NCBI GenBank assembly: GCA_015231515.1
Contig: JADGBM010000023.1
Location: 1-33,886, forward strand
Source of the DNA: Desulfobulbaceae bacterium
GTDB taxonomy: Bacteria; Desulfobacterota; Desulfobulbia; Desulfobulbales; VMSU01
Length of the DNA stretch: 33,886 bases
Direction: 5' to 3'
In this document: positions 1,382-33,886 of the stretch, one piece after another
Position numbering within the stretch: the first letter of the stretch is position 1
How the letters are laid out: each line of letters opens with the position of its first letter
Translations under genes and position numbers: made by a program
Notes under the pieces: model-generated
Told to the model about the DNA's origin: nothing
Database searches by the model: none
Seen by the model: only the letters and a program-made list of their open reading frames with translations

Positions 1382-1468
1382 TTTAATAGTCGCTTTGGAG
1401 TGAGATGGAGTAAAATGAGCTCTTTAGCCAATTACTGTCACTCGCAGACGTCGTAATCGTGATTTAAT

Positions 1469-2281
1469 ATGAACAGTACAATATTTACGATCAGGGCTGA
1501 TAAGCCTCACAGTGTGTCTCTGCTTCTGGATAGTTGCAATCTGGTTTCCGCAATTGGCAGTGCGACCACGGTCATGCTCAAACCTAATCTGGTTGAAGCC
1601 CTGCAACCGCCCATTACTACACCGGTCGAACTGGTGTCTGAGGTGGTGCTGTATCTCAGGCGAATTCGTCCCGAACTTGAAATTATAATTGCTGAGGGTT
1701 CTGGTGCCACCGAATACGAAACATGGCACCCCTTTGACCTCTTGGGTTATTCAAAAATGGCAGAGGCATTTGATGTACGATTAATTGATCTTAATGTCGA
1801 ACCTCAAAGGAAACTCAAGAATGAAGCATGCCGGCAGTGGCCGATAATGTATCTGCCAGAAGTACTGTTTGACGTTTTTTTGATATCAATACCGGTTTTA
1901 AAGGCTCATTCACTGGCCGGGGTTACTCTAACGATGAAAAATATGATGGGCGCCGCACCACCAGAACATTTTCAACAGGGTGGGCATTGGAAAAAGGCAG
2001 CCTTTCATGAAAATGTGCAGGAAGCTGTCTTTGATCTGAACCGGTACAGAACCCCCGACTTTACGATACTCGATGCCTCTATTGGTATGCAGCAGGCACA
2101 TTTATGGGGACCAACCTGCAATCCACCCCATAACCTGTTGGCTGCCTCTCAGGATCCTGTTGCAATTGATGCCTATGGGGCAAAACTCCTGAAACGAGAT
2201 TGGCGGCAGATTGGACATATCGCCATGGCCAATAGAGTTCTTGGCAATGCTGATTCTTATCAGGTGAAGAAAGTTACTTGA
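1469..2281 (+). CDS. DUF362 domain protein
   Basis: A 270-residue protein of the DUF362 family (PF04015). Visible family features are the early segment VMLKPNLVEA, the central IIAEGSGATEYETW, the LKAHSLAGVTLTMKNMMG block at about 150-167, and the C-terminal DPVAIDAYGAKLL. Many DUF362 proteins carry a ferredoxin-like domain with cysteine clusters; this one has none, so it is the short, iron-sulfur-free form. The family is common in anaerobic Desulfobacterota and Firmicutes and has no settled biochemical role. It lies 87 bases after the RlpA gene on the same strand and converges on the radical SAM gene, with only 23 bases between the two stops. The ribosome binding site is weak. Confidence 0.85.
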   Translation: MNSTIFTIRADKPHSVSLLLDSCNLVSAIGSATTVMLKPNLVEALQPPITTPVELVSEVVLYLRRIRPELEIIIAEGSGATEYETWHPFDLLGYSKMAEAFDVRLIDLNVEPQRKLKNEACRQWPIMYLPEVLFDVFLISIPVLKAHSLAGVTLTMKNMMGAAPPEHFQQGGHWKKAAFHENVQEAVFDLNRYRTPDFTILDASIGMQQAHLWGPTCNPPHNLLAASQDPVAIDAYGAKLLKRDWRQIGHIAMANRVLGNADSYQVKKVT

Positions 2282-2304
2282 AAGGGATTGTTGTTATACA
2301 GTCT

Positions 2305-3408: not shown

Positions 3409-3554
3409 TTGGTGCCTTTTTAGAAGGATAGATGTATATAGCGTGAGTTGGAAGTTACAAGAAACTGCACTCCTGAAGGGATACTGCTTCAGCGTTATGC
3501 AAATGATCTTAAGGTACAGGATGCTCGGTATAAAACAAAAGGTTTTTGTGGGAA

Positions 3555-5357
3555 ATGTCTAATCTTATAAGTTGTCAGTCTATCAGTAAATCCTTTGGTG
3601 CTCAAACATTGTTTGAGGATATCACTCTTGGGATATCCTCGGGTGAACGTCTTGGCTTAATAGGCCCTAACGGAGCCGGAAAATCAACCTTACTAAAGAT
3701 ATTTGCCGGTTTAGAAGAAGTCGATACCGGTAAACTGTTTATTCGCAAAAACTTGCGGCTTGTCTTTCTGGCGCAGGCAGAATCATTTGTAGCGGGTGAG
3801 GATATTGAGTCTGCCCTGTATAGATCCTTGGAGTCCAAAACTCATGACAGTCAGTCATTTACTCAAGTTCAAAAAATGGCGGCTAAATGCGGCTTTTTTG
3901 ATCTTAGTCAAAAAGTTGATTCACTCTCCGGAGGCTGGTTAAAGCGCCTGGCCATTTCTTGTGCGTTGATTAAAGAACCCGACCTGCTGTTTCTTGATGA
4001 GCCGACTAACCATCTTGATATGGAAGGAATTTTATGGCTGGAAGATCTTCTTTCAAATTCAAGTTTTGCCTTTGCCGTCATCACCCATGACCGACATTTC
4101 TTGAATACGGTCACCAATCGAATTATTGAGTTGAGCGCCCAATATCCCGACGGCTATCTGCGGGTAGAAGGGAAGTTTGAAGATTTTTTGCGCCGAAAGT
4201 CTGAGCTTTTAACCATGCAGAACAAGCAGGAAACGGTACTGGGGAACAAACTGCGTCGTGAAATAGAGTGGTTGTCCCGCGGACCAAAAGCCCGGACAAC
4301 AAAGGCCCAATATCGTATCGATGAGGCGGCTAAACTTAAAAATACCTTTCAAGATACAAAACATCGAAATGCCCAGGGGAAAGCCATTGATTTGTCGTTT
4401 GATTCGACGGGACGTAAAACCAAAAAACTACTTACTGCCCGGAATATAAGTAAGGTGTTGGGCGGCAAAACCATTTTTGAAAAGCTTGACTTAACGTTAA
4501 CACCGAACATGTGCTTGGGGCTACTCGGTAATAACGGCACGGGGAAATCAACCTTGATCAATGTTCTTGCCGGCAACATCGTTTCAGATACTGGTTCAGT
4601 CGATAAGGTCGATGGTCTCAAGGTCATTTTGTTTGATCAGAAAAGAGAAGGTCTCAATAAGAATCAAACCCTGCGCCGTGCTTTAGCGCCGGATGGCGAT
4701 TCAGTACTCTACAATGACAGGCCGCTCCATGTAGTGAGTTGGGCCAAGAAATTTCTTTTCAGGCCCGATCAGCTTGATATGCCGGTAAGCAGGCTTTCCG
4801 GAGGAGAGCAGGCCCGTATTTTAATTGCCGAACTGATGCGTCAACCAGCGGACATTCTTCTTCTTGATGAGCCGACCAACGATCTTGATATTCCGTCTCT
4901 TGAGGTTCTTGAAGATAGTTTGGCCGATTTCAAAGGTGTTGTTGTTTTAGTCACCCATGATCGATTCCTGCTTGATAGATTGGCGGATTATGTTCTTGGT
5001 TTTGACGGTAATGGCAACTGTGAGCGATATGCGGATTTCAGGCAGTGGCTTGAAGATTTAGAGATAAAAAAAAATCAACAGAGTGCTTCTAAAAGCCAGG
5101 CAGTTCAAAAAGCAAATCAGACAAAGCCTAAGAATAAGATTACCTTAGGAGAGAAGATCGAGCTTGAAAAGATGGAACAACGTATATTTGAAGCCGAACA
5201 GGAGCTTGATATATGTCATCAACGTCTTAGTGATGAGTCAATTCAGTCGAACCCTGCGACCTTAGCTGACTGTTGTGCTAAGCTTGAAGTTGCACAGAAA
5301 AAAGTTGATAACCTTTATAGTCGTTGGCAGGAGCTTGAAGGAAAAATAGCTAATTGA
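3555..5357 (+). CDS. uup: ABC-F ATPase, Uup-like
   Basis: A 600-residue duplicated ABC ATPase with no membrane segments, so an ABC-F protein acting on ribosomes or nucleic acid rather than a transporter. First cassette: Walker A GPNGAGKST, signature LSGGWLKRL, Walker B LLFLDEPTNHLD. Second cassette: GNNGTGKST, LSGGEQARI and ILLLDEPTNDLD. The linker is short and the C-terminal 80-90 residues are charged and helical, like the coiled-coil DNA-binding tail of Uup; the length also fits (E. coli Uup about 635). A longer reading from TTG at 3546 is possible, but the ATG at 3555 is better placed relative to AAAAGG at 3537-3542. It is probably a single-gene unit. Confidence 0.85.
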   Translation: MSNLISCQSISKSFGAQTLFEDITLGISSGERLGLIGPNGAGKSTLLKIFAGLEEVDTGKLFIRKNLRLVFLAQAESFVAGEDIESALYRSLESKTHDSQSFTQVQKMAAKCGFFDLSQKVDSLSGGWLKRLAISCALIKEPDLLFLDEPTNHLDMEGILWLEDLLSNSSFAFAVITHDRHFLNTVTNRIIELSAQYPDGYLRVEGKFEDFLRRKSELLTMQNKQETVLGNKLRREIEWLSRGPKARTTKAQYRIDEAAKLKNTFQDTKHRNAQGKAIDLSFDSTGRKTKKLLTARNISKVLGGKTIFEKLDLTLTPNMCLGLLGNNGTGKSTLINVLAGNIVSDTGSVDKVDGLKVILFDQKREGLNKNQTLRRALAPDGDSVLYNDRPLHVVSWAKKFLFRPDQLDMPVSRLSGGEQARILIAELMRQPADILLLDEPTNDLDIPSLEVLEDSLADFKGVVVLVTHDRFLLDRLADYVLGFDGNGNCERYADFRQWLEDLEIKKNQQSASKSQAVQKANQTKPKNKITLGEKIELEKMEQRIFEAEQELDICHQRLSDESIQSNPATLADCCAKLEVAQKKVDNLYSRWQELEGKIAN

Positions 5358-5467: not shown

Positions 5468-5749
5468 ATGGCATCAGATGTAAGCGAATTAACAATAAAT
5501 TTTGAAGAAGATGGTGTTGTGACTCTTAAAGAGTTGGATAAGATAGTTCTAACCAAGGGAGCCTGGGCAACACTAATTTTTCGTTATCAGCAGTTTGATA
5601 AGAAAAAAAATGAGTATGGCCCTGACAAATATACAATCCGCCGTTATCAAAAACGTGCCGGAGAATATGCCCCGAAAAGTAAGTTTAATATCTCCAGCAG
5701 AGATCAGGCTGAAAAAATTATTGAAGCCCTGCAAAGCTGGATCGATTAA
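5468..5749 (+). CDS. Small conserved protein of unknown function
   Basis: A 93-residue soluble protein with a clear ribosome binding site (GAGG about eight bases before the ATG). The sequence starts acidic and becomes basic: the middle has FRYQQFDKKKNEYGPDKY, followed by TIRRYQKRAGEYAPKSKF and a C-terminal helix EKIIEALQSWI. The alternating aromatic and basic residues followed by an amphipathic helix recall PC4-like single-strand nucleic acid binders, but I cannot support that assignment from sequence alone. No signal peptide or cysteines are present. The thioesterase gene starts 21 bases downstream on the same strand, so the two are probably co-transcribed. Confidence 0.75.
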   Translation: MASDVSELTINFEEDGVVTLKELDKIVLTKGAWATLIFRYQQFDKKKNEYGPDKYTIRRYQKRAGEYAPKSKFNISSRDQAEKIIEALQSWID

Positions 5750-5770
5750 CGCCTCTTCCTGGGAAATTTC

Positions 5771-6265
5771 ATGAACTGTGACGACATTGTAATCAGCCAG
5801 ATTATGCAGCCCCACGAGGCAAATCCCATGGGCAATATTCATGGCGGTGTTATCATGCATTATATTGATAATGCCGCAGCTGTGGTGGCGACGCGGTATG
5901 CTAAAGGTATTGCTGTTACGGCTTCAGTCGATAGGCTTGATTTTTTTCATCCGGTCTATATTGGCAACTTGCTTTTGTTGAGAGCCTGTCTTAACTGGGT
6001 GGGCAATACCTCTATGGAGATAGGGGTTCGTGTTGAAACGGAAGATTTGAAAACAGGGACAATTAAGCGCATAGCCTCTTCATATCTTACCTTTGTTGCC
6101 TTGGATGATCAGGGTAAACCGCGTAAATTGCCAAGTCTTAACATCACCAATGATGCTATGAAGCTTCGATTCAGGGAGGCGGAGGCTCGCAGGAAGAATC
6201 GCCTTGCTGAAAAAGAGGCGGAAAGGCAATGTCTCGAAAACCCCGATGAGTGCAGACTTTTATAG
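5771..6265 (+). CDS. Acyl-CoA thioesterase, hotdog fold (YciA/ACOT-like)
   Basis: A 164-residue hotdog-fold thioesterase that should hydrolyse acyl-CoA to free acid and CoA. The segment ANPMGNIHGGVIMHYIDNAA near residues 18-37 is the family core, with the HGG turn that starts the long central helix and the Asp near its middle. A second conserved strand reads VDRLDFFHPVYIGNLLLL. The C-terminal 25 residues are charged and cysteine-containing (RLAEKEAERQCLENPDECRLL in part), a common tail in cytosolic ACOT-type enzymes. It ends in TAG, and its last six bases overlap the convergent gene for the PEP synthase regulator. Substrate chain length cannot be read from the sequence. Confidence 0.85.
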   Translation: MNCDDIVISQIMQPHEANPMGNIHGGVIMHYIDNAAAVVATRYAKGIAVTASVDRLDFFHPVYIGNLLLLRACLNWVGNTSMEIGVRVETEDLKTGTIKRIASSYLTFVALDDQGKPRKLPSLNITNDAMKLRFREAEARRKNRLAEKEAERQCLENPDECRLL

Positions 6266-7078
6266 CCCGGCTTTTTTGATGAGTCCGAGCTCTTGGGCTA
6301 TTTGTGTTGCCAGTTCCTCAATTGATTTACCGTAGGTGTCAATGGCAGGAATTTTATATTTCAGAAATATCTGTTTTGCCTGTTCGAGTTCCTGAACGCA
6401 GGTTGTCTTCTTTGCGTAATTACTGTTTGGATATCTTTGTTCGCGGATGCGATGAAGGCTTTCCGGGCTCGTGGTCAGGCCAACGGCTTTCTTTCTATTC
6501 TTGTTTAATCCTTCCGGCAGGGTATAACTTTCCAAGTTATGTGTAGTTAAAGGATAGTTGGCAGATTTCATGCCCATGTGTGTCGACATATACACACTGA
6601 CAGGTGTTTTCCCTGAGCGTGAGACGCCAAGCAAGATCACATCAGATTCGTCATAATCATCAACTCGTGTGCCATCGTCGTGATCCAGGCAGAAATGGAT
6701 GGCGTCAGCGCGTTTAGCCATATTGAGGTCGTTAACCTGTCTTGAAAATCCAGGCAGCAATAAGGCCTTGGCCTCCAGGCAAACCTCAAGTCTATTTACA
6801 AATGCACCGCAGACATCAAAAAGCTCAACCTCCGGGTGATCAAAGATTTGCCGAATCTCTGGATCAATGAGGGTGCTGAAGATTATCGGCCGTCTGCCAA
6901 CCGAGTTTTTTAGTATGTAGTTTATGGTCTTATGGGCTTCCGGCTTGGTTTTAATAAATGAAAATTTTTCTTCATGAAAATTGATTTCAGGAAATTGACA
7001 TAATAGCGATTGTCCGAGATTAGTTGCTAAGATTCCTGTGCTGTCTGAAACGAAGTAAATATCTTTTGATTTCCACAT
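6260..7078 (-). CDS. ppsR: PEP synthase / PPDK regulatory kinase-phosphorylase (DUF299)
   Basis: A 272-residue member of the DUF299 family, bifunctional serine/threonine kinases and pyrophosphorylases that switch phosphoenolpyruvate synthase or pyruvate phosphate dikinase off and on. The family start is DIYFVSDSTGILA, and the P-loop-like segment LLGVSRSGKTPVSVYMS is at about residues 148-164, followed by KSANYPL. Full length matches the family (about 270-280). The target enzyme is not in the window, so whether it acts on PpsA or PpdK is undecided. No strong ribosome binding site is visible. The stop codon overlaps the end of the convergent thioesterase gene. Confidence 0.9.
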   Translation of the reverse strand: MWKSKDIYFVSDSTGILATNLGQSLLCQFPEINFHEEKFSFIKTKPEAHKTINYILKNSVGRRPIIFSTLIDPEIRQIFDHPEVELFDVCGAFVNRLEVCLEAKALLLPGFSRQVNDLNMAKRADAIHFCLDHDDGTRVDDYDESDVILLGVSRSGKTPVSVYMSTHMGMKSANYPLTTHNLESYTLPEGLNKNRKKAVGLTTSPESLHRIREQRYPNSNYAKKTTCVQELEQAKQIFLKYKIPAIDTYGKSIEELATQIAQELGLIKKAGL

Positions 7079-7344
7079 AGTTGATACCGACGATAATTAG
7101 TTATGAAAAGCAACTTTTCTGACAATGGCTTACTACTTTTTGTACCATAAAGAGTGGTCTTTAAAAAATTGTTTTTTTATCAGTGTTGGGGCTGCGCTTT
7201 ATGTTGTGCAACAATTTTTCAGATTGACTGGTTTTGCAGTTGTATGTGAGTATAGTGAATAATAAAAACTGCGACAGTTATCTGCTGACAAATGTAATAA
7301 AAAATAAGGTTCTTTAAAAAAATAATTTACACCACAACGCAACA

Positions 7345-7926
7345 ATGGTTTCAATAAACATGAACTCTGAATCGACGAACGATGATACTAAACGTATCAA
7401 TATTAAAATAAGGGAGATGGAGATTGACGATCTCTCAGAAGTCTTCCACCTTGGAGAAGATCTTTTTAAAGCCCAGAATTCCCCGAATATGTACCGCACC
7501 TGGGATCCGTACGAAGTTGTTGGGCTCTTTCATAGTGATACTGAATTTTGTCTTGTCGCCGAAGTTGGTGACGATATTATCGGTTTTGCACTGGGAACGA
7601 CTATTGAAAAAAGTCATTCGGCCTGGAAATACGGCTATCTTATCTGGTTGGGCATTAAGCCGGAATTCCAGCGCACTGGGGTTGCTGAAAAGCTGTTTCG
7701 CCGTTTCAAGGATCTTATGCTTAAATGCAAAGTTCGTATGCTCCTTGTTGACACCCAAAGCGAAAATCTGCCGGCGCTTCGTTTTTTTCGTAAAATCGGT
7801 TTTGGTCATCCAACCGAACACATATACTTAACTATGAATGTAACGGCCGAGAAACAGGCTTTGACCAAAAAGGCGCAAATTCCTTCTATACTGTCCATTT
7901 CGGACCAGAAAAAAAATGCCAAATAA
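7345..7926 (+). CDS. GNAT family N-acetyltransferase
   Basis: A 193-residue acetyltransferase with a standard GNAT fold at about residues 12-160. It begins INIKIREMEIDDL, has the beta4 strand GYLIWLGIKPEFQRTG leading into the acetyl-CoA loop QRTGVAEKLF, and the late motif ENLPALRFFRKIGF. Both ATG 7345 and ATG 7360 are possible starts; neither has a good ribosome binding site. Its last 11 bases overlap the start of the M20 hydrolase gene, so translation is probably coupled. The pairing of an acetyltransferase with an ArgE/DapE-like deacylase suggests the two act on the same kind of N-acyl compound. The substrate is unknown. Confidence 0.85.
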   Translation: MVSINMNSESTNDDTKRINIKIREMEIDDLSEVFHLGEDLFKAQNSPNMYRTWDPYEVVGLFHSDTEFCLVAEVGDDIIGFALGTTIEKSHSAWKYGYLIWLGIKPEFQRTGVAEKLFRRFKDLMLKCKVRMLLVDTQSENLPALRFFRKIGFGHPTEHIYLTMNVTAEKQALTKKAQIPSILSISDQKKNAK

Positions 7927-9037
7927 TCGTATAAAACCTCAACGATTGAGTAAATTGCTGCAGCGGTTGGTAGACATCTACAGCCCTTCAGGCAAAGAGG
8001 GTGATGTACTTGATTTCCTGAAAGGCTATTTCAAACGGCGCAACCTGCCGGTTATTGTTCAACCAGTTGACGATGATCGTTACAACCTCATTTTGTCCCC
8101 TGTAACCAAAGATATTAAGCTTGCCTTCATTGGTCACATCGACACAGTGCCTGCCCCTGATCTCGACAGCTACTGTTACAGTGAACTGGGGGATACTGTC
8201 AAGGGGCTGGGTGTGGCTGATATGAAAGGTGGCTGTGCTGCAATGATTGAAGCGTTTTTGACTTTCCTGGAGGCAGGAAATTCACAAGCTCCTATTGCGC
8301 TCTGTCTTGTTGTCGGAGAAGAGGAGAGCGGTGACGGTGCTGAAAAGCTGATGAGAGCCTATCATTTTCCGTGGGCCGTCATTGGTGAACCAACGGATAT
8401 GGCGCCCTGTCTGCAATCTTACGGCTATGTCGAAATACAGCTTACAGCTAAGGGCACAAGGCAGCATGCATCGGTGGCCAAGCGTCGCCAGAATGCCATA
8501 GAAGTTATGCTCCAGACAATTTTACGCCTCACCCATCATCTGGAATTAAAATACCCTCATGTAACCTATAATATCAGGGATCTTTTTAGTTCTCATTCCG
8601 GTTTTGCTGTGCCGGAGCGAAGTGAAGCGTGGCTTGACCTGCACGTGCCGCCGGGCATGGACATTGGCGAGATTCTTCTCGATCTGGAGGGCATTGCGAT
8701 GGCCAAAACAGAAAAACTTAACGGTATTGAGATCGTGTTTCGGCGTGTTACTATAGCTGCAGGGTATCAGTTGCCCGAGAAAGAAGCGGTTGTTGAGACA
8801 ATGAAAAGCATTTTTAAAAATCACGGCATCCAGTGGTCTTCTTCAGCCTTTAGAAGTCACTCGGATGCTAATCAGATATGGGCATCGGGGGTCAAGCCGA
8901 TCATTTTAGGGCCAGGCCAATTGGAACAGGCCCATTCGCATGATGAGTCTGTTTCATTTAAGCAGGTCTGTCAGGCGGCTGAAATTTATCTTGATCTCAT
9001 GTACGCGATGGTGAAGGATGGTAGTGATGCCTCATGA
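7916..9037 (+). CDS. M20 family metallohydrolase (ArgE/DapE-like deacylase)
   Basis: A 373-residue zinc hydrolase of the M20/ArgE-DapE-CPG2 family. The metal and catalytic residues are in place: His74 and Asp76 in FIGHIDTVP, Asp102 in GVADMKGG, Glu135 and Glu136 in VVGEEES, Glu158 in IGEPTD, and a late His in QAHSHDES. A dimerisation lid domain at about 170-285 separates the halves. The length fits acetylornithine deacetylase or succinyl-diaminopimelate desuccinylase, but no lysine or arginine biosynthesis genes are nearby. The start overlaps the upstream acetyltransferase gene by 11 bases, pointing to a shared function in adding and removing an acyl group. The precise substrate is not assigned. 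Confidence 0.85.
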   Translation: MPNNRIKPQRLSKLLQRLVDIYSPSGKEGDVLDFLKGYFKRRNLPVIVQPVDDDRYNLILSPVTKDIKLAFIGHIDTVPAPDLDSYCYSELGDTVKGLGVADMKGGCAAMIEAFLTFLEAGNSQAPIALCLVVGEEESGDGAEKLMRAYHFPWAVIGEPTDMAPCLQSYGYVEIQLTAKGTRQHASVAKRRQNAIEVMLQTILRLTHHLELKYPHVTYNIRDLFSSHSGFAVPERSEAWLDLHVPPGMDIGEILLDLEGIAMAKTEKLNGIEIVFRRVTIAAGYQLPEKEAVVETMKSIFKNHGIQWSSSAFRSHSDANQIWASGVKPIILGPGQLEQAHSHDESVSFKQVCQAAEIYLDLMYAMVKDGSDAS

Positions 9038-9074
9038 AATTGATGTTTAATGCTGAGAGTAAGGAGATGGACGG

Positions 9075-9980
9075 ATGATGGACTTAAGATGCTTCAGGTA
9101 CGGTACGATAGTTATTATTTCTCTCTTTTTTCTTGTCTGTAGCCGTCCCGGCATTTCTCACAGTAAGGATAATTTTATTATTGGTCTTATTCCCGAGATG
9201 AACGTTTTTAAGCAGCAGCAGCGATTTCAGCCTCTTGCCGATTATCTGTCGGAAAAAATTGGAGTTAAGGTTGAACTTTCAATGCTGAGTCGATATGGTA
9301 ACATTGTACAAAGACTCAAAGAGGCCAAGGTTGATGCAGCCTTTCTCGGGTCGTTTACAGGGGCGCTGGCAATTTCACAATTAGGGGTTGAACCGCTTGT
9401 CAGACCGATTAATCTAAACGGAACCTCAACCTATCACGGCCATATTTTTGTTAGAAAGGATAGTGGTATACAAACCTTTGAGGAGATGAGGGGTAAGACC
9501 ATGGTTTTCGTAGAACGGGCAACGACTGCCGGCTATATTTTCCCTCTTGCCTATATTAAACGTCACGGAGTTACTGATTATACTACCTTTTTCAACGAGT
9601 ATTTTTTCTCTGGCAGTCATGATGCCGCAGTTGATGCAGTATTTAAAGGTCAAGCTGATATTGGTGCCGCTAAAAACACCATCTTTGATTTTTACATGGA
9701 GAAAAACCCAAAAGCTAAGGACGAAATAGTTATACTCGCCAGTTCACCAAATGTTCCCTCAAACGGCCTTTGTGTAATTCCGACTTTAGATAAGGAGTTA
9801 AAGTATAAAATAAAGAATGCTCTGCTCGAATTAGATACCAATCCGAAAGGAGCTAGTGTACTAAAAAAACTACGAGCGATTCGCTTTGTAGAAACCCGCA
9901 AAGAAGACTACCTGCCGGTTACAGTTCTTTCATCTGAGGCGGAAATCAGCCTGAAAGAGTATCAATACATAAACAGATGA
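9075..9980 (+). CDS. PhnD-like periplasmic phosphate/phosphonate-type binding protein
   Basis: A 301-residue exported binding protein with a signal peptide of about 30 residues (hydrophobic GTIVIISLFFLVCS, predicted cleavage after ISHS). The mature part follows the PhnD/SsuA/THI5-like pattern: LIPEMNVFKQQQRFQPLADY, DAAFLGSFTGAL, then FVRKDSGIQTFEEMRGKT and ADIGAAKNTIFDFY. ATG 9075 has AAGGAG eight bases upstream. There are no ABC permease or ATPase genes next to it; instead it overlaps the histidine kinase gene by four bases (ATGA). It therefore probably presents a ligand to the kinase sensor rather than feeding a transporter. The ligand could be an oxyanion such as phosphate, phosphite or phosphonate. 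Confidence 0.85.
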   Translation: MMDLRCFRYGTIVIISLFFLVCSRPGISHSKDNFIIGLIPEMNVFKQQQRFQPLADYLSEKIGVKVELSMLSRYGNIVQRLKEAKVDAAFLGSFTGALAISQLGVEPLVRPINLNGTSTYHGHIFVRKDSGIQTFEEMRGKTMVFVERATTAGYIFPLAYIKRHGVTDYTTFFNEYFFSGSHDAAVDAVFKGQADIGAAKNTIFDFYMEKNPKAKDEIVILASSPNVPSNGLCVIPTLDKELKYKIKNALLELDTNPKGASVLKKLRAIRFVETRKEDYLPVTVLSSEAEISLKEYQYINR

Positions 9981-11446
9981 AACGACTGATCATCATATCA
10001 TTTGCCCTGATTTTTGGGATTTTCTCTTTAGGATCAGGTGTTTTTGTCTACAACATCTATACCACCTCAAATAATCTGCATAGCCTGATTGGTATGCACG
10101 AAATTGAGGATATCCGCCATGAGCTTTTCTTCAGTGTGCAGAAAGTGCAAACCTATGTCCATGCGCCAGGCATAATTTTTTCAAAACATCTTGATGAGAT
10201 CATTTCAAGTGCGGCAATGCTCGATAATGCAATCGGCCGTTGTCATGAATGTCACCATAGGGAGGATGTAAAGGCCGAAATTAATGCTACCCAGCAATTG
10301 GTTGATACCTTTGAAGAACAGCTCAGCTATTTGATTACTATGATTGCTGATAGCGATCGAAGAACTGCTATGCAATACAAAGTTTCCAACCTTGGCAACA
10401 CAATTCTCGATCAGGTGCAGAGTATGATCAAACGGGCGGGGAGCACCGTTCAGCAACGGACGGACGAGGCACTTGCACTGCTTAACCGTATATATCCTCT
10501 CCTTGGTGTAACAATTCTGACAACGTTTCTTCTCGCCCTGTATGTAGCCAGGTTTCTTACTCTGAGGATTACACAGCCAATTGACGCACTTGTTGATGCT
10601 TCGCGTAAACTTTCTGATGGCAATTGGGGGTACCAGAGTGAATTTAAGGCTACAGGGGAATTTGCTGAACTGGTGAACTCTTTTAACACCATGAGTTTCT
10701 CGCTGGCCACCAAGAAAAAACAGATTCAACAGCAGGTTGAAGAGTTAAAAAATACCCAGAAGCAGCTTGTTGAGGCGGAAAAACTGACTGCCATAGGAAC
10801 GCTTGCCGGCGGCATTGCCCACGACTTCAATAATATTCTTTGCGGCATGATTGGTCACCTTGCGCTGCTACGAAACTATATTGCCCCTGATGATAAAAAA
10901 CAGGCAATAATCAATACTATTGAAACTGCCGGATTCAGGGCAGCTGATCTTATTAAGCAGTTATTGGCTTTTGCACGACATAAATCTATTGAGAAAAAGG
11001 CTGTTGATATCAATCAGTGTGTGAATAATGTTTACGAACTGATCAAACATTCAATCAGTAAAACAATTACGACCAACATTTCTTTGTCCAGATCGGTTTC
11101 TTGTGTCATTGGAGATCATACCCAGCTTGAGCAGGTGGTAATGAACCTGTCTATTAATGCCCGTGATGCTCTGCAAGATAAAGGTACAATTTCGATCAGT
11201 ACTGAACAAGTTACTGTGGACGAACAATCTTGCACGAATCATCCTGATGCACGTCCCGGCGACTACATTAAACTTGAAATTTCAGATACCGGCGCAGGTA
11301 TAGATGATGACGTTTTGCCCAGAATTTTTGAGCCTTTTTTCACCACCAAAGGGGTTGGAGAGGGTACAGGCCTCGGCTTGGCTATGGTTTACGGAATAAT
11401 AAAAGGCCATGATGGTTTCTGTTTGATTGACAACACCCCAGGCTAA
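9977..11446 (+). CDS. c-haem sensor histidine kinase, cut from its receiver domain by an in-frame TAA
   Basis: A 489-residue membrane kinase. TM1 is about residues 4-26, the periplasmic sensor 27-170, TM2 about 172-193, then HAMP (196-245), a coiled coil, HisKA with phospho-acceptor His282 in GGIAHDFNN, and a HATPase domain with [23 protein letters not shown] and [11 protein letters not shown]. The periplasmic part contains Cys89-His-Glu-Cys92-His93, a CxxCH c-type haem attachment motif. The frame stops with TAA (11444-11446) just after DNTPG, where relatives continue as PG-x-GTxFxxYLP. The missing strand and a receiver domain follow directly in the same frame. The gene overlaps the binding-protein gene by four bases. 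Either a hybrid kinase with a nonsense mutation, or a kinase lacking only its final strand. Confidence 0.85.
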
Positions 11447-12017: not shown

Positions 12018-12671
12018 ATTGCCAATATTAATATTTATCTCATGGATGGCAAACTTTCCAACCAGACGCAGAAGCTTCTTTCTGAGGCAGAAAAGGCTTC
12101 CATCCGGGCACAAGATCTCACCCAACAACTGCTCACTTTTTCAAAGGGTGGTGACCCTGTTAAAAAAACATCCTCAATTTATGAGATCATTAAAGATTCT
12201 GCCAATTTTATTCTGCATGGCAGCAGTGTCTCATGCCAGTATGAGATTGCCGATGACCTTTTGTGTGCTGAAATTGACACAGGCCAGATAAGCCAGGTCA
12301 TCCAGAACCTTATACTTAATGCAAAACAAGCAATGCCGTCAGGTGGCATCATTAAAGTGAGTTGTGTCAATACGACTTCTGTACCCAATAGCGGATTACT
12401 GCCTGATAACAGACCCTATATAAAAATCGATATTACTGACCAGGGTGTTGGTATCGATAAAAACATCATAGATAAGATATTTGACCCATATTTTAGTACC
12501 AAGAAAGATGGCAGTGGTCTTGGCCTTGCTATCGTTCACTCAATCATTGCCAAACACAACGGACATATTTCAGCCCATTCAGAGTTGGGTGGGGGGACAG
12601 TTTTTACTGTTTTTCTTCCTGCTGTAGAAGCAGCAGAGACGAAGGTTCACCTGTGCTTTATGACGGACTAA
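12018..12671 (+). pseudogene. Decayed histidine kinase fragment lacking the H-box
   Basis: From about 12018 the frame resembles the second half of a HisKA domain and a whole HATPase domain: IYLMDGKLSNQTQKLL, LTQQLLTFSKGGDPV, VIQNLILNAKQAMPSGG, ITDQGVGIDKN, FDPYFSTKKDGSGLGLA and GGGTVFTVFLP. The GGIAHDFNN helix with the phosphorylatable His, expected about 20 codons before IYLMDG, is missing; the upstream codons (SPAFFKLIANINI) look like an internally deleted version. No credible start or ribosome binding site is present; ATG 12042 would give 209 residues. It lies right behind the receiver fragment but in a different frame, so it is a second kinase module, probably inactive as an autokinase. 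Its end overlaps the convergent gene by four bases. Confidence 0.75.
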
Positions 12672-13549
12672 ATGAGCCAATTTGAGTATTCTTGACCGAA
12701 TTGGTCCTTCAATCGACGTGTTACCAGTTCCTGATGGGTATTCTTTTCATGATTGTTAGCAGCTTTATCAATAGCATGTTCAGCAACTGATGTTACGAGT
12801 GGCGTGAGCCGAGGGTTTTTCGTTACTGTTTTTTCAACTTCGTTGAACATCTGTTTTGCAGTTTTATTTCTGTTGTGAGACCTATCGCTTCTGGAAATAT
12901 ATTTCTGGTTTTCGTCTGATTCGTAATTCTTCTGATCTGTCTTGGCCATATGCTCCTGCTGATCCCGTTTATTTAAAAAATCGATGAACTGTTGCCATTG
13001 AGCCTGTAGGGCTTTTGAGGCCATATCTTCTTTGTTGAGTTCATTTTTCTGCATTGACGCAAAAACATCATCAAGCAACAGGTCCTGCATGTCAGGCATT
13101 GGATGTGGCCCTTTCAGGTAGTTGCTAATGGCAGTAGTTTGAGAAAAATTAGCCTCAAGTCTGGCAATAGTTCCCATGTCCCCAATGGCCATAGCTCCTG
13201 CTATAGCTTCATTGGTGTCTCCGGTATAAAAATCGTCGGCAATTGTTGTTAATTTGTCCAGGAGGGTCGTGAGATCTGCGAGCTCCTGCTCATTTAAATC
13301 TCCTTCAACGGTGAAGGAAAATTTCTCAACTGTCACTTCTTGGGCCAGGGATCTCTCAATACTTTCATAACTGCTCATCTGCTGACGGGATTTTTCTAAG
13401 ACACCGCTTTGGATGGTAATCTTGTCGCCCTCCTTAGTCAGGAGAGTTATATCTGCTGCTTTGCTGTTTGAGGCGTTAAGCTGTTGCTGCCATTGTGATT
13501 GATTGGCTAATGGCGGTGTGTAAAGAGAAGATGAAAGTGCAGTTTTCAT
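12668..13549 (-). CDS. Hypothetical protein, possibly DUF5610-like
   Basis: A 293-residue soluble protein that I cannot name with confidence. The start is taken at the fifth codon of the longest frame because GGAG lies six bases before that ATG. The N-terminus is polar and Gln/Asn-rich, then comes a strand-like block EKFSFTVEGDLNEQELADL followed by a helical stretch with repeated acidic residues, and a C-terminal third rich in Lys, Asn and Gln. This layout resembles proteins annotated DUF5610 in flagellated proteobacteria, but that is memory of pattern only. It has no signal peptide, membrane segment or cysteine. The gene stands alone between the decayed kinase and the divergent acetate operon. 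Confidence 0.7.
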   Translation of the reverse strand: MKTALSSSLYTPPLANQSQWQQQLNASNSKAADITLLTKEGDKITIQSGVLEKSRQQMSSYESIERSLAQEVTVEKFSFTVEGDLNEQELADLTTLLDKLTTIADDFYTGDTNEAIAGAMAIGDMGTIARLEANFSQTTAISNYLKGPHPMPDMQDLLLDDVFASMQKNELNKEDMASKALQAQWQQFIDFLNKRDQQEHMAKTDQKNYESDENQKYISRSDRSHNRNKTAKQMFNEVEKTVTKNPRLTPLVTSVAEHAIDKAANNHEKNTHQELVTRRLKDQFGQEYSNWLI

Positions 13550-13652
13550 ATTTGTCTCCATGTTTTATGAGTTCTACGGCTTATTCTGCTGATCGGTTCA
13601 GAAAACCAAAAGCATTAAATTTATTTTTTTTTGGTTAATCTGGCAGGCTAAT

Positions 13653-13682
13653 TTGACTTTTTTATTAAGGAAGGCATATACT
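13653..13682 (+). promoter_or_regulatory. Sigma70-type promoter of the acuC operon
   Basis: TTGACT at 13653-13658 and TATACT at 13677-13682 are separated by 18 bases; each box differs from consensus at one position. The first gene starts 60 bases downstream at 13742. The upstream DNA is A/T rich, including a T9 run near 13622-13632. No operator palindrome is obvious. Confidence 0.6.
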
Positions 13683-13741
13683 TAACTGTAATTTGTTTAT
13701 GACGGCTTTTAGTACCTTAAAAACAGCTTGCCTGGAATTAG

Positions 13742-14713
13742 ATGACCAATTTTCGTAATTTTACAGTAATTGATCACTGTCAATTTGATGCTCACGATAT
13801 CGGCAGTGGAACGCATCCTGAAAGCCCCGATAGATTGGGTGTTATTCGTAGTCGACTTAAAGGCAGTATTCTCAAAGATTTTATTACTCAAGTTGAAGCC
13901 TCCACGGTTGATAGGGATATATTCCTAGCCGTGCATGATGATGCCTACCTCTATCGATTTGAAGAGGCTGCCTTATCCGGAAATCTTGATATCGATCACT
14001 CCGATAATCAGATCTGTTATGAATCTTTTGACGTTGCCATGCTGTCTGCTTCGGCGGGTGTAAACGCTATAGATTTAATTGAAAGCAACAGGGCGAAGAC
14101 GGTATATTGCAATATTCGTCCGCCGGGACACCATGCGGAACGTAAAGCGGCACTTGGCTTTTGCTTTTTGAATAATTCATTGGTTGCGGCGCGTTACTGG
14201 CAGAAAAAATATCAGAAAAGAGTCTTTGTTATTGATTGGGATGCACATCATGGCAATGGCATTCAAAGTGGTGTTGAATCCGACCCGGATATCTTCTATG
14301 TCAGTATACACGAACACCCGACATTTAGTTTCCCTGGCACCGGTTATGCCGAAGAAGTTGGAGTTGGTGAGGGAAAAGGCACAATTTTGAATATTCCTCT
14401 GCCGCCTGGTGCGACAGACGAGATGGTTATACGGGCATTAAATGAAAAAGTAGCCCCGGCTCTGAAGAAATTCAAGCCGGAGGCGATTGTCGTTGCAGCG
14501 GGTTTTGACGGTCACCAGCTCGATGATATGAGCGCTTTATGCTACAGCACGAACCTGTATGCGCAACTTGGGGTCTACATGAATGTTTGGGCTCAACAGT
14601 ACTGTGGCGGAAGAATCGTCTCAATTCTTGAAGGTGGGTATCATCTTCAAGCTTTAGCTGCCAGTGTTGAAGCATATCTTGCCGGTCTTAGTGCAATTGA
14701 TACCAATAAATAG
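13742..14713 (+). CDS. acuC: AcuC-like histone deacetylase family protein
   Basis: A 323-residue zinc-dependent deacetylase of the arginase/deacetylase fold. The catalytic set is complete: tandem His130-His131 in RPPGHHAE, zinc ligands Asp167 and His169 in DWDAHHGNG, zinc ligand Asp256 in GFDGH, and Tyr300 in LEGGYH. Bacterial members remove acetyl groups from lysines (AcuC on acetyl-CoA synthetase in Bacillus) or from acetylpolyamines. The next gene is AcuB-like and the two after that make acetyl-CoA enzymes, one with an acetyltransferase domain. This context favours a role in reversible acetylation of acetate-activating enzymes. It is the first gene behind the promoter at 13653 and ends in TAG just before the next ribosome binding site. 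Confidence 0.88.
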   Translation: MTNFRNFTVIDHCQFDAHDIGSGTHPESPDRLGVIRSRLKGSILKDFITQVEASTVDRDIFLAVHDDAYLYRFEEAALSGNLDIDHSDNQICYESFDVAMLSASAGVNAIDLIESNRAKTVYCNIRPPGHHAERKAALGFCFLNNSLVAARYWQKKYQKRVFVIDWDAHHGNGIQSGVESDPDIFYVSIHEHPTFSFPGTGYAEEVGVGEGKGTILNIPLPPGATDEMVIRALNEKVAPALKKFKPEAIVVAAGFDGHQLDDMSALCYSTNLYAQLGVYMNVWAQQYCGGRIVSILEGGYHLQALAASVEAYLAGLSAIDTNK

Positions 14714-29323: not shown

Positions 29324-30193
29324 CTATTCATTACGCAGCCTCTTCAGTGCCTGATTGTGTAAGGCGTAAGCATAGATATCCTTAATCGGAGCGGTGGGGA
29401 TAAGCTGGCCGTTGCGGGTACGACCAGTCGTCTGACCCAGGCGAAGCCAGTTGGCCGCCCGATAACATGTGCCCTGAAAACGATGATCCACGAAGGTCTC
29501 AAGCAGCAAGATTGGGTGGCCGTACTTGGCTTGCCAATCCTTGCTGAGCCGTCTGGTAATCATGCCAAGCAAGTGGCTCGCCAGGCATGGAACCTGTACC
29601 CAGGGCAGGACAAGAAATCGATGGTTGTTGGTTAGGAACTTTAACCGTTCACGGCGCTGGTTGACGTTCCATCCGATATGCTGGTCGCGTGCCGCACAAC
29701 TCCAGGCCGCTGAACCGAATAGCAAACAGGCGAGCGGGCGGCCATGGCGATCAGCAGCCAGATAGGCCATGTTCTCTCCAACTGGTTGCTTGAAACTCAA
29801 ATAGTGGTACTTGGCCAGCAGCCAAGCGAATAAGGCGGAGTGCTTCTTTAAAGAGATATCGAGTAACTGCAAGGGCTGGAGAGAGGAAAGCGGTTCCGTA
29901 ACGGGTGTTGTGTCGTGCTCAATCGGCTTGACTGGCAGATGGCGAAAGCGGTTTGGAGAAAGCATTCTAGGTGCGGGGAGATCGATCACACCCTTATCTG
30001 CGAGTTTCCGTAGGAGGCTTCGGCAGGCAATGTCCTTGAGCTGGTTATTGCTGTTCCGCCAATCCCAGAGTGTGGCAAGTTCACGGCTTAGCCGGTATCG
30101 GCTCCACGACGGATTTTGTCTCCTGAGATCCTGTATGGTAGTAATGTCTTTGGCGGTGAGAGTGCGGCCTTGGATAATAATTGGTGTTTGCAT
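29324..30193 (-). CDS. Orphan DruA-like DUF4338 protein
   Basis: A 289-residue protein of the DUF4338 family, to which DruA of the Druantia antiphage systems belongs. An N-terminal winged-helix-like part (TTIQDLRRQNPSWSRYRLSR, about 15-90) precedes the DUF4338 core: LFAWLLAKYHYLSFKQPVGE, LACLLFGSAAWSCAARDQ, FLVLPWVQVPCLASHLLG, LETFVDHRFQGTCYRAANW and a final GRTRNGQLIPTAPIKDIYAY. The other Druantia genes (large DruE helicase and partners) are absent. Orphan copies of this family occur repeatedly in some genomes next to short repeats, suggesting a mobile or DNA-processing role. The direct repeats just downstream fit that view. No strong ribosome binding site or terminal inverted repeats are evident. 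Confidence 0.82.
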   Translation of the reverse strand: MQTPIIIQGRTLTAKDITTIQDLRRQNPSWSRYRLSRELATLWDWRNSNNQLKDIACRSLLRKLADKGVIDLPAPRMLSPNRFRHLPVKPIEHDTTPVTEPLSSLQPLQLLDISLKKHSALFAWLLAKYHYLSFKQPVGENMAYLAADRHGRPLACLLFGSAAWSCAARDQHIGWNVNQRRERLKFLTNNHRFLVLPWVQVPCLASHLLGMITRRLSKDWQAKYGHPILLLETFVDHRFQGTCYRAANWLRLGQTTGRTRNGQLIPTAPIKDIYAYALHNQALKRLRNE

Positions 30194-30432: not shown

Positions 30433-31944
30433 ATGAAAGTAGATATTGGCCCTATTACCCGTATTGAGGGACACCTGAGCATTCAAACGACAGTTGAAGA
30501 TAACATAATTACAGAGGCGCGAAGCGTTGGCGAAATGTTTCGCGGCTTTGAAGTTATTTTACGGGGACGAGACCCATTAGATGCCCAACAAATCACTCAG
30601 CGTATTTGTGGGGTATGCCCTTACGCACATGCCATTGCTTCTTCCTATGCTCAGGAGAATGCTTACAACCTAAGCGTGCCCGCTAATGGTCGTATCATGC
30701 ATAATCTTATACAGGGTGCTAACCACCTCTATGATTACCTACTACATTTTTACCAACTTTCAGCCTTAGACTTTGTTGACGTTACAGCCATCCTAAAATA
30801 CACGGGATCTGATTCTGACCTGGTCAAATTGAGAGATTGGGTTAAGTTTGAGGTGGCCTCGGGTAAGCCCTTTCCGGCAACACCTTTTTTGCCACGCCTT
30901 TCTGGAAAATATATTGAAGACACTGATCTGAATATTGGCGCCTTAAAACATTATATCGAGTCTTTAGAAATTCAGCAAAAAGCCAACAAAGCCTCAGCAA
31001 TTTTTGGTGGCAAATTTCCGCATGCTACAGCAATTTTTCCTGGAGGTTGCACCCAGGATCCTAGCATTGATCACATTTCCTCATACCGGTCGCTGATCCG
31101 TGAAGTTAAAGAGTTCATCCACCAAAAATATATCCCCGATATTCTCGCAGTTGCTCAGGGATTCCCTGAGTACTGGGAGATAGGTAAGAGCAAGGGAGGC
31201 TTTATGTCGTTTGGGCTTCTGCCGCTTGGGCCAGAGTTGGACAGCAAAAGGTTGTTTGCTCCGGGGGTGCTTTTGAACGGCGCCTTAGAGAAAGTTGATT
31301 TTGAAGCTATCAAGGAAGATGTTAAATATTCTAAATACTCATCACCGTCTGGTCTCAAGGTGCGAGAAGGGACTTTAACTCCCGCCCCACACAAGTCCTC
31401 AGCATATACTTGGGTTAAGGCACCACGCTATAAAGGTCAGGTGATTGAGGTTGGACCTGCAGCAAGAATTATGGTCGACTATACGCAAGGTCATAACCAA
31501 AAAATCAAGGAGCTTGTTGATAAATTCGCCGGGGTTGCAGGAATTGGTGCTGAAAACCTTAACTCTGTGCTTGGCAGACATCTGTGCCGCGCAATATCTG
31601 CCGTTGTAATTGCTGATTTTTTACTTGAAGAAACAGAACGGATTGACACCAAGGCTCCAACCATGGCCGACTATGAATTGCCTGAATCAGGTGAAGGATT
31701 TGGAGCTACAGAAGCCTCACGTGGTGCGTTGTTACATTACATCAATATAAAAAATTACAAGATCGATAGATATGAATGCGTTGTGCCGACCACCTGGAAC
31801 TGTTCTCCTAAAGATGATAGGGACCAACCAGGTGCTCTTGAATCCGCTCTGATAGGAACTCGCGTAGAAACGCCTGACGAGCAGATAGAAGCAAATAGAA
31901 TTGTGCACTCATTTGATCCTTGCCTTGGTTGTGCTGTCCACTAA
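30433..31944 (+). CDS. [NiFe] hydrogenase large subunit, HysA-like with Cys, no C-terminal extension
   Basis: A 503-residue catalytic subunit. The N-terminal metal motif is Cys59 and Cys62 in QRICGVCPYAH, the C-terminal motif Cys497 and Cys500 in FDPCLGCAVH. The family block ARSVGEMFRGFEVILRGRDP is intact. The shorter length and the LGCAVH ending resemble the [NiFeSe] large subunits of sulfate reducers, but the selenocysteine position is Cys (TGC). Most large subunits carry about 15 extra residues after the last His, removed by a maturation protease; here TAA follows His503 directly, as in H2-sensing hydrogenases (HoxC/HupV) and CooH. AAGGA lies eight bases before the ATG. The large subunit precedes the small one, the reverse of the usual order. 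No maturation genes are in the window. Confidence 0.92.
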   Translation: MKVDIGPITRIEGHLSIQTTVEDNIITEARSVGEMFRGFEVILRGRDPLDAQQITQRICGVCPYAHAIASSYAQENAYNLSVPANGRIMHNLIQGANHLYDYLLHFYQLSALDFVDVTAILKYTGSDSDLVKLRDWVKFEVASGKPFPATPFLPRLSGKYIEDTDLNIGALKHYIESLEIQQKANKASAIFGGKFPHATAIFPGGCTQDPSIDHISSYRSLIREVKEFIHQKYIPDILAVAQGFPEYWEIGKSKGGFMSFGLLPLGPELDSKRLFAPGVLLNGALEKVDFEAIKEDVKYSKYSSPSGLKVREGTLTPAPHKSSAYTWVKAPRYKGQVIEVGPAARIMVDYTQGHNQKIKELVDKFAGVAGIGAENLNSVLGRHLCRAISAVVIADFLLEETERIDTKAPTMADYELPESGEGFGATEASRGALLHYINIKNYKIDRYECVVPTTWNCSPKDDRDQPGALESALIGTRVETPDEQIEANRIVHSFDPCLGCAVH

Positions 31945-31983
31945 GCCATTTTTTGATAACGAATAGATTGGAAAGGGGAAATT

Positions 31984-32898
31984 ATGCCTGATCTTGATCG
32001 ACGAAAATTTTTGAAAATGGCAGCATGTCTAAGCGCTGCCTTTGGAGTTGGCAATTTACCAGCACCTGTGCTGGCAGCCCTGAAGAAAATTGATGGGGCT
32101 GTGCCCACGTTAGTCTACTTGCAAGGGCAATCATGCACTGGTTGTTCTATTTCATTGTTGCAGGCCGAAACACCTAACGCTGTGACCATGATTACGGAGT
32201 ATTCAAAACTCTCCTTTCATGCCGATATGTCCGCAACTTCGGGGAAACAAGCTTTAGCGCTTATTGAGAAATACCTTAGTGGAAATGCTGGCGAGTATTT
32301 TTTAGCTGTTGAGGGCTCAATTCCATATGACATGCCTGAGGCCTGTGTAATGGGCCACAAACCTTTTGCAGAGCATCTGCTTGACGCCTCAAAAACCATG
32401 GTCGGTGCTGTTGCCATAGGGACCTGTGCAACTCATGGCGGAATACCTGCTGCTGAAGGGAATCTTACCGGAGCAGTAAGCCTCAAGGAATTTTACAAGC
32501 GCAAGGGAAAATCCCCTCTGATAATTGACATCCCTGGCTGTTCAGTTCACCCAGATTGGGTATGGAAAACAATTGTTCACTTGGTTCAGGTTGGTTTACC
32601 AGAACTGGTTAACGGCCAGCCTAAACTGTTTTTTGATCGAAAGGTACATGAGCTGTGTCCACTTTATCATGATTTTCAGCAAGAGATATTTGCGAAAAAG
32701 CTTGGCGAAAAAGGGTGTCTCTTTAAACTAGGTTGTATTGGGCCAGATACCAACGCTGACTGCTCAACCCGTTGGTGGAATGGGAGGCAAAGTTGGTGTA
32801 TTGGCGCCAAAGCTCCTTGTATAGGCTGTGCCTCACCAATTTTTGCAGCCAAAAAAGATTTCCCATTCTACCGGATAGCAAAAAAAGGCAAGGAGTAG
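31984..32898 (+). CDS. [NiFe] hydrogenase small subunit with Tat signal
   Basis: A 304-residue electron-transfer subunit. It starts with a twin-arginine signal, DRRKFLKMAA, and a hydrophobic stretch to about residue 32, so the dimer is exported and the large subunit rides along. Proximal cluster ligands: Cys51, Cys54 (QSCTGCS), Cys148 (GTCATHGG) and Cys186 (IPGCSVHPD). Distal: His222, Cys225, Cys245 and Cys251. Medial: Cys260, Cys272, Cys279 and Cys282; Cys272 in SWCIGAKAPCIGC replaces the Pro that forces a [3Fe-4S] cluster in standard enzymes, so three [4Fe-4S] clusters are predicted, as in [NiFeSe] hydrogenases. The two extra cysteines of oxygen-tolerant enzymes are absent. No C-terminal membrane anchor. 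GGAAAGG precedes the ATG, 39 bases after the large subunit. Confidence 0.92.
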   Translation: MPDLDRRKFLKMAACLSAAFGVGNLPAPVLAALKKIDGAVPTLVYLQGQSCTGCSISLLQAETPNAVTMITEYSKLSFHADMSATSGKQALALIEKYLSGNAGEYFLAVEGSIPYDMPEACVMGHKPFAEHLLDASKTMVGAVAIGTCATHGGIPAAEGNLTGAVSLKEFYKRKGKSPLIIDIPGCSVHPDWVWKTIVHLVQVGLPELVNGQPKLFFDRKVHELCPLYHDFQQEIFAKKLGEKGCLFKLGCIGPDTNADCSTRWWNGRQSWCIGAKAPCIGCASPIFAAKKDFPFYRIAKKGKE

Positions 32899-32957
32899 CA
32901 AGCGCCTTTTAGTTACTATTACTTTCATTGAATATGTAGATTTAAAGAGGAAAGTGA

Positions 32958-33886
32958 ATGAAAGATCAATTCTTAGACAGATTGCCAGTATCGTATCGAG
33001 TCATCATTGCCGTCGTTATTGCGCTCACCGTTTCACTGCTTGCCGGTATCGTTTTGTTAAATGGATTTGTCGAAAAACAGATGAACAAAATTTATATTGA
33101 TTCTGTTCAGACTCTTTTCACCTCGCTTGAAGACGGTGTTAAGGGATCATTGGAAAGGGGGCAAATGAAGAATTTTCAGAAACTCCTTGTCCGACAGAAG
33201 GAGATCAAAGGTGTTATTGAAGTAACCCTCTTTGACAAAACTGGTGCCCTCAACCTTTCCTCTAATGGCGCCGAAGGGAAGCAAAGACTTGAACCAGAGG
33301 TAATGGCACAGTTTGAGAAAAGTCAAAAACCTGTATGGTCGAAAAAGGGTTCAGTTCTACAAATTTCAGCCCCTCAGGAGGTTGTCGCCGACTGTATTCG
33401 TTGTCACCCGCTATGGAAGGAAGGGGAAGTCGGTGGAGCATTATCACTCTCTTTTGATCTCAGCGATTTAGACGAAACTGTATCAAAATTACAGCTCTTT
33501 ATGTCCGCTGGGGCCTTATTCCTTTTATTGTTTATTAGTGCAATAATTTTAATGCTCATGAGCAGAATGGTCAGCTCACCTATCAATAAAATTATCGATC
33601 ATCTTACTAGAAGTGCTGCGAATGTCGGTGAAGCTGCCCACCTATCTGCGTCAAGCAGCGAATCACTTTCTGATAATGCATCACAGCAAGCTTCTTCTTT
33701 AGAAGAAACTGCTGCCTCCCTTGAAGAGTTGTCTTCTATGACCAGAATGAACGCTGAAAATGCTGCTCAAGCAGATCAGCTTATGACAGGAACTAATCAA
33801 GTTATGACAGATTCCACTAAAATCATGGATAAGTTACAAGATGCTATGGCCAAAATCGTTGAAAGTAACAAGGAGACCTCATCAAT
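32958..33886 (+). CDS. Methyl-accepting chemotaxis protein with periplasmic c-haem motif (runs off the window)
   Basis: The first 309 codons of a chemoreceptor. TM1 is about residues 15-38, the periplasmic sensor 39-172, TM2 about 176-200, then a short HAMP-like region and the start of the signalling coiled coil (ASQQASSLEETAASLEELSS, methylation-helix pattern). The sensor has a single Cache/PAS-like domain containing Cys146-Ile-Arg-Cys149-His150, a CxxCH c-haem motif, in ADCIRCHPLW. This recalls DcrA of Desulfovibrio, a haem chemoreceptor for oxygen or redox. The conserved hairpin tip that contacts CheA/CheW lies beyond the window. GAGG lies eight bases before the ATG. It is 59 bases behind the hydrogenase small subunit on the same strand, suggesting a functional link. 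Confidence 0.87.
   Translation, partial: MKDQFLDRLPVSYRVIIAVVIALTVSLLAGIVLLNGFVEKQMNKIYIDSVQTLFTSLEDGVKGSLERGQMKNFQKLLVRQKEIKGVIEVTLFDKTGALNLSSNGAEGKQRLEPEVMAQFEKSQKPVWSKKGSVLQISAPQEVVADCIRCHPLWKEGEVGGALSLSFDLSDLDETVSKLQLFMSAGALFLLLFISAIILMLMSRMVSSPINKIIDHLTRSAANVGEAAHLSASSSESLSDNASQQASSLEETAASLEELSSMTRMNAENAAQADQLMTGTNQVMTDSTKIMDKLQDAMAKIVESNKETSS

Follow-up and report, generated by a model that had tools for sequence, protein, structure and literature searches.

A putative H2-sensing unit of an exported [NiFe] hydrogenase and a c-haem chemoreceptor in a Desulfobulbaceae genome

Three adjoining genes of a Desulfobulbaceae bacterium (assembly GCA_015231515.1, contig JADGBM010000023.1) encode the large and small subunits of a [NiFe] hydrogenase and a chemoreceptor with a periplasmic c-haem attachment motif, CxxCH. 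The window analysed here is a stretch of 33,886 nucleotides, and the three genes lie at its downstream end. We propose that they probably constitute an exported sensor dedicated to H2: the receptor haem would take up electrons from H2, and chemotaxis would be biased accordingly. This proposal builds on the gene set, its linkage, the metal ligands, a Cache-fold model of the sensor domain and the joint inheritance of enzyme and sensor, from which we infer haem loading, direct electron transfer, redox switching and behaviour.

Linkage and joint inheritance of hydrogenase and haem sensor

The large subunit was searched for in three overlapping genome sets: 96 relatives, 258 members of the class and 395 members of the phylum. 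Flanking DNA was taken for large-subunit matches down to about 40% identity, and the resulting sample ends at about 39% within one phylum. The 94 loci with a readable large-subunit end were sorted by one feature, namely whether or not residues follow the motif DPCxxCxxH. Seventy-two of the 94 are extension-less, all with the large-subunit gene before the small one, and 22 bear an extension. A CxxCH sensor open reading frame (ORF) follows the hydrogenase in every extension-less locus with enough flanking sequence (70/70); the other two are truncated by contig ends, and in one of these the 83 residues ahead of the end match the kinase described below at 89%. The 70 sensors comprise 61 with one CxxCH motif and nine kinase-like proteins with two. 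Among the former, the methyl-accepting chemotaxis protein (MCP) domain was found as Pfam MCPsignal in 7/7 representatives scanned, and its presence in the rest is assumed by similarity. The two-CxxCH sensors resemble a histidine kinase, with an ATPase domain found in L090. The 22 extension-bearing loci are of respiratory type, with extensions of 14–17 residues and mostly the small subunit before the large, and a haem sensor follows in none of them (0/22). Three candidate exceptions were rejected: the flagged proteins of L131 and L135 are ferredoxins of the HybA type in which CxxCH occurs by chance, and L115, considered as an extension-less locus lacking a sensor, does have the receptor.

The linkage also holds in the reverse direction. 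A sensor profile run over 58 genomes, with a close copy defined as E < 1e-70 or the gapped copy on contig C66, returned 29 close copies, the next matches having E > 1e-14; 28 of the 29 directly follow a small-subunit gene. The searched genomes also contain CxxCH Cache sensors that are more distant. Contig C66 of the source genome carries a second unit, whose large and small subunits are 78% and 73% identical to those of the window. The first 98 residues of its receptor match at 50%, and a CLRCH motif, a transmembrane stretch and the start of the signalling part are present, the gene being interrupted by a run of N and by the contig end. Because the linkage is two-way and a second copy is found in the same genome, chance adjacency is rejected. 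A first-pass annotation of the window had named a search for conserved adjacency in relatives as one way to check the pairing, and had noted that no cytochrome, membrane anchor or maturation gene stands between hydrogenase and receptor; both the linkage and the direct succession are borne out, genes for cytochrome b, cytochrome c, a membrane anchor or a protease being absent between them.

Close matches lie on contigs of Desulfurivibrionaceae, Desulfobulbaceae and other delta-proteobacterial metagenome-assembled genomes (MAGs), and no close relative was found among plasmid records (best match 36%). In two related MAGs (L052, 10099–11841; L053, 10570–11967), an extra MCP gene without CxxCH is located between the small subunit and the haem receptor.

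In large-subunit trees, one change separates extension-bearing from extension-less enzymes, with a modest support of 86% SH-aLRT, and the kinase-linked group arose once among the MCP-linked ones. The root is unsure because the outgroup HoxC sits on a long branch. Pairwise distances of large subunits and sensors are correlated at r = 0.89 (59 loci; none of 2000 permutations as high), the corresponding value for the two hydrogenase subunits being 0.97; within the close clade, both correlations are about 0.80–0.81. In two-copy genomes, each sensor is nearest to the sensors of the nearest hydrogenases, not to its own paralogue. Judged from these sequence comparisons, enzyme and sensor are inherited together as a unit.

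Predicted properties of the enzyme and the receptor

The first-pass annotation described a hydrogenase pair with a twin-arginine translocation (Tat) signal, followed after 59 bases by a chemoreceptor with a CxxCH motif, and this is confirmed by the coordinates (Table 1), by Pfam and NCBIfam matches and by the motif CIRCH. Two points absent from that annotation are the order of the genes, large subunit before small, and the C-terminus of the large subunit, DPCLGCAVH*, which lacks an extension.

Table 1. Features of the hydrogenase–receptor unit in the window
Feature	Position	Strand	Description
[NiFe] hydrogenase large subunit	30433..31944	+	503 aa; Pfam NiFeSe_Hases (PF00374) E 4.6e-153
[NiFe] hydrogenase small subunit	31984..32898	+	304 aa; Pfam NiFe_hyd_SSU_C E 1.5e-24
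Intergenic gap	32899..32957	+	59 bases; AGAGGAAA = ribosome-binding-like stretch ahead of receptor ATG
c-haem chemoreceptor (MCP), residues 1–309	32958..33886	+	first transmembrane helix (TM1) ~13–35, periplasmic Cache domain, CIRCH 146–150, second (TM2) ~177–203, start of cytoplasmic signalling part
Receptor Met70 codon	33165..33167	+	invariant in 59/59 sensors
CIRCH c-haem attachment motif (receptor residues 146–150)	33393..33407	+	Cys/Cys/His invariant in 59/59 sensors

The [NiFe] family PF00374 is the sole Pfam match of the large subunit, whose Ni-Fe ligands are C59, C62, C497 and C500. The L2 motif contains no selenocysteine (TGA), the codon of C497 being TGC, and the [NiFeSe] model NF045518 scores 472.5 bits, under its cut-off of 780. 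The four Ni-Fe cysteines are kept in 72/72 extension-less loci. The large subunits of L103 and L105 lack the His of the L1 motif (RICGVCPVSQ). In the small subunit, the Tat-signal model scores 21.3 bits against a cut-off of 16.7 (motif DRRKFLKMAA) and the NCBIfam model hydA TIGR00391 scores 187.1 bits, above its cut-off of 179.5. Ligands for three [4Fe-4S] clusters are present (C51, C54, C148, C186; H222, C225, C245, C251; C260, C272, C279, C282); the medial cluster has four Cys, as in NiFeSe enzymes, and the closest solved structures are periplasmic NiFeSe enzymes. These Fe-S ligands are kept in 72/72 extension-less loci with the exception of C54 (70/72), and a standard twin-arginine motif occurs in 69/72, the remaining three having RRxAL. 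In the deepest members, L143 and L144, Asp replaces the proximal-cluster Cys54 (CSGD in L143). A C-terminal membrane anchor was not found by hydropathy in the small subunit, here or across the whole extension-less set.

Given the conserved ligands, the Tat motif and the lack of a membrane anchor, the enzyme is soluble, exported and apparently active; its relay of clusters for electrons is complete, and no respiratory partner is encoded with it. Two of the attributes of a group 1 [NiFe] enzyme, the Tat signal and the standard L1/L2 ligand cysteines, are present. The protease-removed C-terminal extension is absent, since the 72 loci including this one end at DPCxxCxxH, and no membrane/quinone or cytochrome c partner is encoded within the unit, such a partner being possibly encoded elsewhere.

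No terminator-like site was found within the gap between hydrogenase and receptor, and promoter-like sites are at chance level (six found, 4.8 expected). The receptor gene ends at residue 309 because the window is the entire contig, one of 225 in the assembly; a complete orthologue in L056 has 491 aa and matches MCPsignal at E 1.1e-41. As expected of a c-haem MCP, a periplasmic CxxCH domain lies between two transmembrane helices, the MCP signalling domain being complete only in orthologues. Residues G68, Met70, F73 and L91 are, together with CxxCH, invariant across 59 sensors, and Met70 is an attractive candidate for the second (distal) haem ligand. The notion that it corresponds to the axial Met60 of the Geobacter sensors was not supported, as Met60 aligns with Leu65, five residues from Met70.

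A PDB search with a single sequence gave no placement of the sensor domain, a profile of 34 sensor sequences gave GSU0582 (E 0.65) and GSU0935 (E 0.94) among unrelated matches, and the receptor reaches 14.9 bits with sCache_haem PF11845, under the gathering cut-off of 24.1. Since sequence and profile searches gave no clear match for the sensor domain, comparison at the level of the fold was needed. AlphaFold2, run on seven sequences, modelled the periplasmic domain as a Cache fold (mean pLDDT 76.4). Foldseek matches of this model include GSU0935 (3b42, E 3.7e-4) and GSU0582 (3b47, E 9.8e-4), the higher-ranked matches being mostly other Cache-type sensors. With VIA-align, Cache-type matches reach Z 12, and GSU0582 and GSU0935 are not among the best 50 matches listed.

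Directly upstream of the hydrogenase and transcribed away from it is a gene for a lone DruA-like protein (29324–30193, minus strand; Pfam DruA E 1.1e-30), beside which no other Druantia genes were seen.

Proposed mechanism and competing explanations

In the mechanism that we propose, the two hydrogenase subunits would be folded, metal centres included, while still in the cytoplasm and would exit jointly by the Tat pathway, using the signal of the small subunit. The periplasmic enzyme would oxidise H2, and the small subunit, with its three iron-sulphur clusters, would relay the electrons to the c-haem of the receptor Cache domain. Haem reduction would alter the ligation, as in Geobacter GSU0582 and GSU0935, and TM2 would transmit the change to the MCP signalling domain, from which it would reach CheA/CheW and bias movement. 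Oxidised cytochromes, O2 or NO could re-oxidise the haem, so that the receptor would read H2 supply against oxidant. In the sister loci, where a histidine kinase, CheX and a receiver are encoded, the same input may lead to another response. H2 has a standard potential of −414 mV. The Geobacter c-haem receptors GSU0582 and GSU0935, which undergo a ligation switch on reduction, have potentials of −156 and −251 mV (PMC8396549). By this comparison, H2 is thermodynamically able to reduce such haems. The earlier suggestion that the hydrogenase reduces the receptor haem thus gains support from the linkage, the metal ligands, the lack of another encoded electron partner and the missing C-terminal extension, with the electron transfer itself a prediction; its companion suggestion, that the hydrogenase depletes a local signal, was judged unnecessary.

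Several neighbours of the unit are signalling genes. Downstream of the receptor, L062 encodes a CheA-receiver hybrid and CheW, L116 encodes CheA, and several other loci have CheA-sized genes. In the kinase lineage, a CheX-like phosphatase and a stand-alone receiver adjoin the di-CxxCH kinase (L090, 2360–5618; L106, L107, L109); in L110 this kinase is split into two ORFs. Such neighbours indicate that the output is chemosensory in kind, and in individual loci it may be flagellar swimming. The source genome does hold the flagellar export gene FlhA. Of the coupling to swimming behaviour suggested in the first-pass annotation, a chemosensory output therefore stands, and the sister loci with kinase, CheX and receiver imply that it need not always be flagellar. 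Some further gene arrangements were observed. Upstream of the paralogous unit (L007, 5837–14125) are genes for CheC-like, receiver, NMT1-receiver fusion and dCache MCP proteins. The source genome also has a separate Hyb-type respiratory hydrogenase operon (L008), placed between receiver/CheB-like genes and an MCP gene (3230–5275, 5687–11231, 12619–14301). In L095, a gene on the plus strand (709–3279), convergent with the hydrogenase–MCP unit, encodes a GGDEF-EAL protein that likewise contains a CxxCH domain, flanked by two transmembrane helices; it is possibly a c-di-GMP branch of the same signal.

Under an energy-taxis reading, the enzyme would be a periplasmic uptake hydrogenase of the ordinary kind, supplying electrons to the cytochrome c pool, with the receptor sampling that flow or pool and H2 as one input among several. 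The kinship of the small subunit to periplasmic NiFeSe enzymes, which use soluble cytochrome c3, agrees with it, a soluble enzyme could reach other cytochromes, and the same genomes have the more distant CxxCH Cache sensors. Yet a cytochrome gene occurs in no inspected unit, the hydrogenase is paired almost one-to-one with a single sensor clade, and respiration has its own Hyb-type set in the source genome. Moreover, the extension-less end is typical of sensory and not of exported uptake enzymes: the extension is absent in the H2-sensing groups 2b and 2d, and also in 4c, 4e and 4g, group 1 not being named (PMC7294309). We therefore consider energy taxis unlikely. A different division of labour, which we regard as rather improbable, would have the receptor sense NO, O2 or an oxidant, the hydrogenase being a private reductase that keeps the haem ferrous with H2. 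It draws on reports that NO, but not O2, is bound in fusions of sCache_haem domains with signalling modules (PMC12889525) and that the Geobacter sensors bind NO and CO (PMC8396549). However, one enzyme type is combined with two sensor types, the mono-CxxCH MCP and the di-CxxCH kinase, for which H2 as the common signal is the better fit, and other periplasmic reductants should exist. As to shared regulation, operon membership alone is no proof of contact, and co-transcription of genes used under the same conditions, with neither physical nor electron-transfer contact, would be expected to give the same adjacency. The linkage, however, is two-way in a phylum-wide sample, the sensor type was replaced jointly on one branch, enzyme and sensor diverge in a correlated manner and no other electron acceptor is encoded, which makes this explanation very improbable.

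Some points weigh against a dedicated H2 sensor. NO is what is bound in the closest sensor family studied by experiment, that of sCache_haem fused with signalling modules (PMC12889525), and the alignment of Met60 with Leu65 instead of Met70 means that the Geobacter ligand switch is not simply transferable. A receptor gene in L151 (4310–5782), whose product is 73% identical to the receptor of the window, has no adjoining hydrogenase, the unit being elsewhere in that genome; it is the one close copy outside the linkage. HypD, which is needed for the Ni-Fe cofactor, was not found in the source assembly, which is 95% complete in 225 contigs and holds several NiFe hydrogenase gene sets. As 11 of 13 genomes that carry the unit do have HypD, its absence is probably an assembly gap.

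Relation to known hydrogenases and sensors

H2 plays a central role as a currency of syntrophy and of anoxic sediments. As to how motile bacteria would find it, H2 taxis is on record for a methanogen, as cited in one paper (PMC4266047), and HydDB lists chemotactic hydrogenases only as putative [FeFe] enzymes. The unit described here would provide a concrete molecular route to H2 sensing, and its carriers include single-contig genomes. We think it reasonably likely, with less assurance than for the single unit, that these loci represent an unrecognised class, in which c-haem receptors have an exported extension-less [NiFe] hydrogenase as their signal-specific front end, the enzyme standing in for a ligand-binding protein and electrons for the ligand. 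Such a class would give many families of the phylum direct H2 chemotaxis, with re-use of the enzyme with a di-haem kinase in the sister lineage. If so, a clade easily counted as respiratory group 1 in surveys probably consists of sensors, and predictions of H2 metabolism drawn from it would be wrong. A large subunit ending at DPCxxCxxH and a large-subunit gene placed first would serve as the separating rule.

HydDB recognises as sensory classes 2b, 2c and the putatively chemotactic [FeFe] C2, with none in group 1 (PMC5037454). The group 2b sensors HoxBC/HupUV, which act with HoxJ/HupT, resemble the present unit in lacking the large-subunit extension (HoxC ends DPCMVCTVH), in being encoded beside a signal-transduction protein and in their function, H2 sensing. 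However, HoxB has no Tat motif and is cytoplasmic, whereas the unit here is Tat-exported, and the former signals via a PAS kinase instead of a transmembrane c-haem MCP; HoxC is also very distant from the unit's large subunit in the tree. For [FeFe] group C2, labelled "chemotactic (putative)", H2 sensing via methyl-accepting chemotaxis proteins has likewise been proposed (PMC5037454), but with an [FeFe] H-cluster where the present unit has a Tat-exported [NiFe] enzyme and a haem relay. The uptake enzymes of group 1a/1b ([NiFe]/[NiFeSe]) share the Tat-exported soluble heterodimer and the three [4Fe-4S] clusters, with a four-Cys medial cluster as in NiFeSe enzymes; the unit differs from them in the missing extension, Cys instead of selenocysteine in L2, the large gene first, the lack of a cytochrome partner and scores below NCBIfam equivalog cut-offs.

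On the receptor side, DcrA of Desulfovibrio, GSU0582 and GSU0935 of Geobacter and sCache_haem PF11845 have the same layout of two transmembrane helices, a periplasmic Cache/PAS-like CxxCH domain and MCP output. Their sequence similarity to the present receptor is very low, the candidate distal ligand Met70 lies at a different position from Met60 of the Geobacter sensors, and the receptor here is almost always coupled to a hydrogenase. The first-pass annotation knew of no system with this exact arrangement, and in the open-licence literature we likewise found no description of a c-haem receptor paired with a group-1-like [NiFe] enzyme that is exported and lacks the extension. H2-sensing hydrogenases as such are already known; what is clearly new is the design, which joins export, a c-haem relay and chemoreceptor output.

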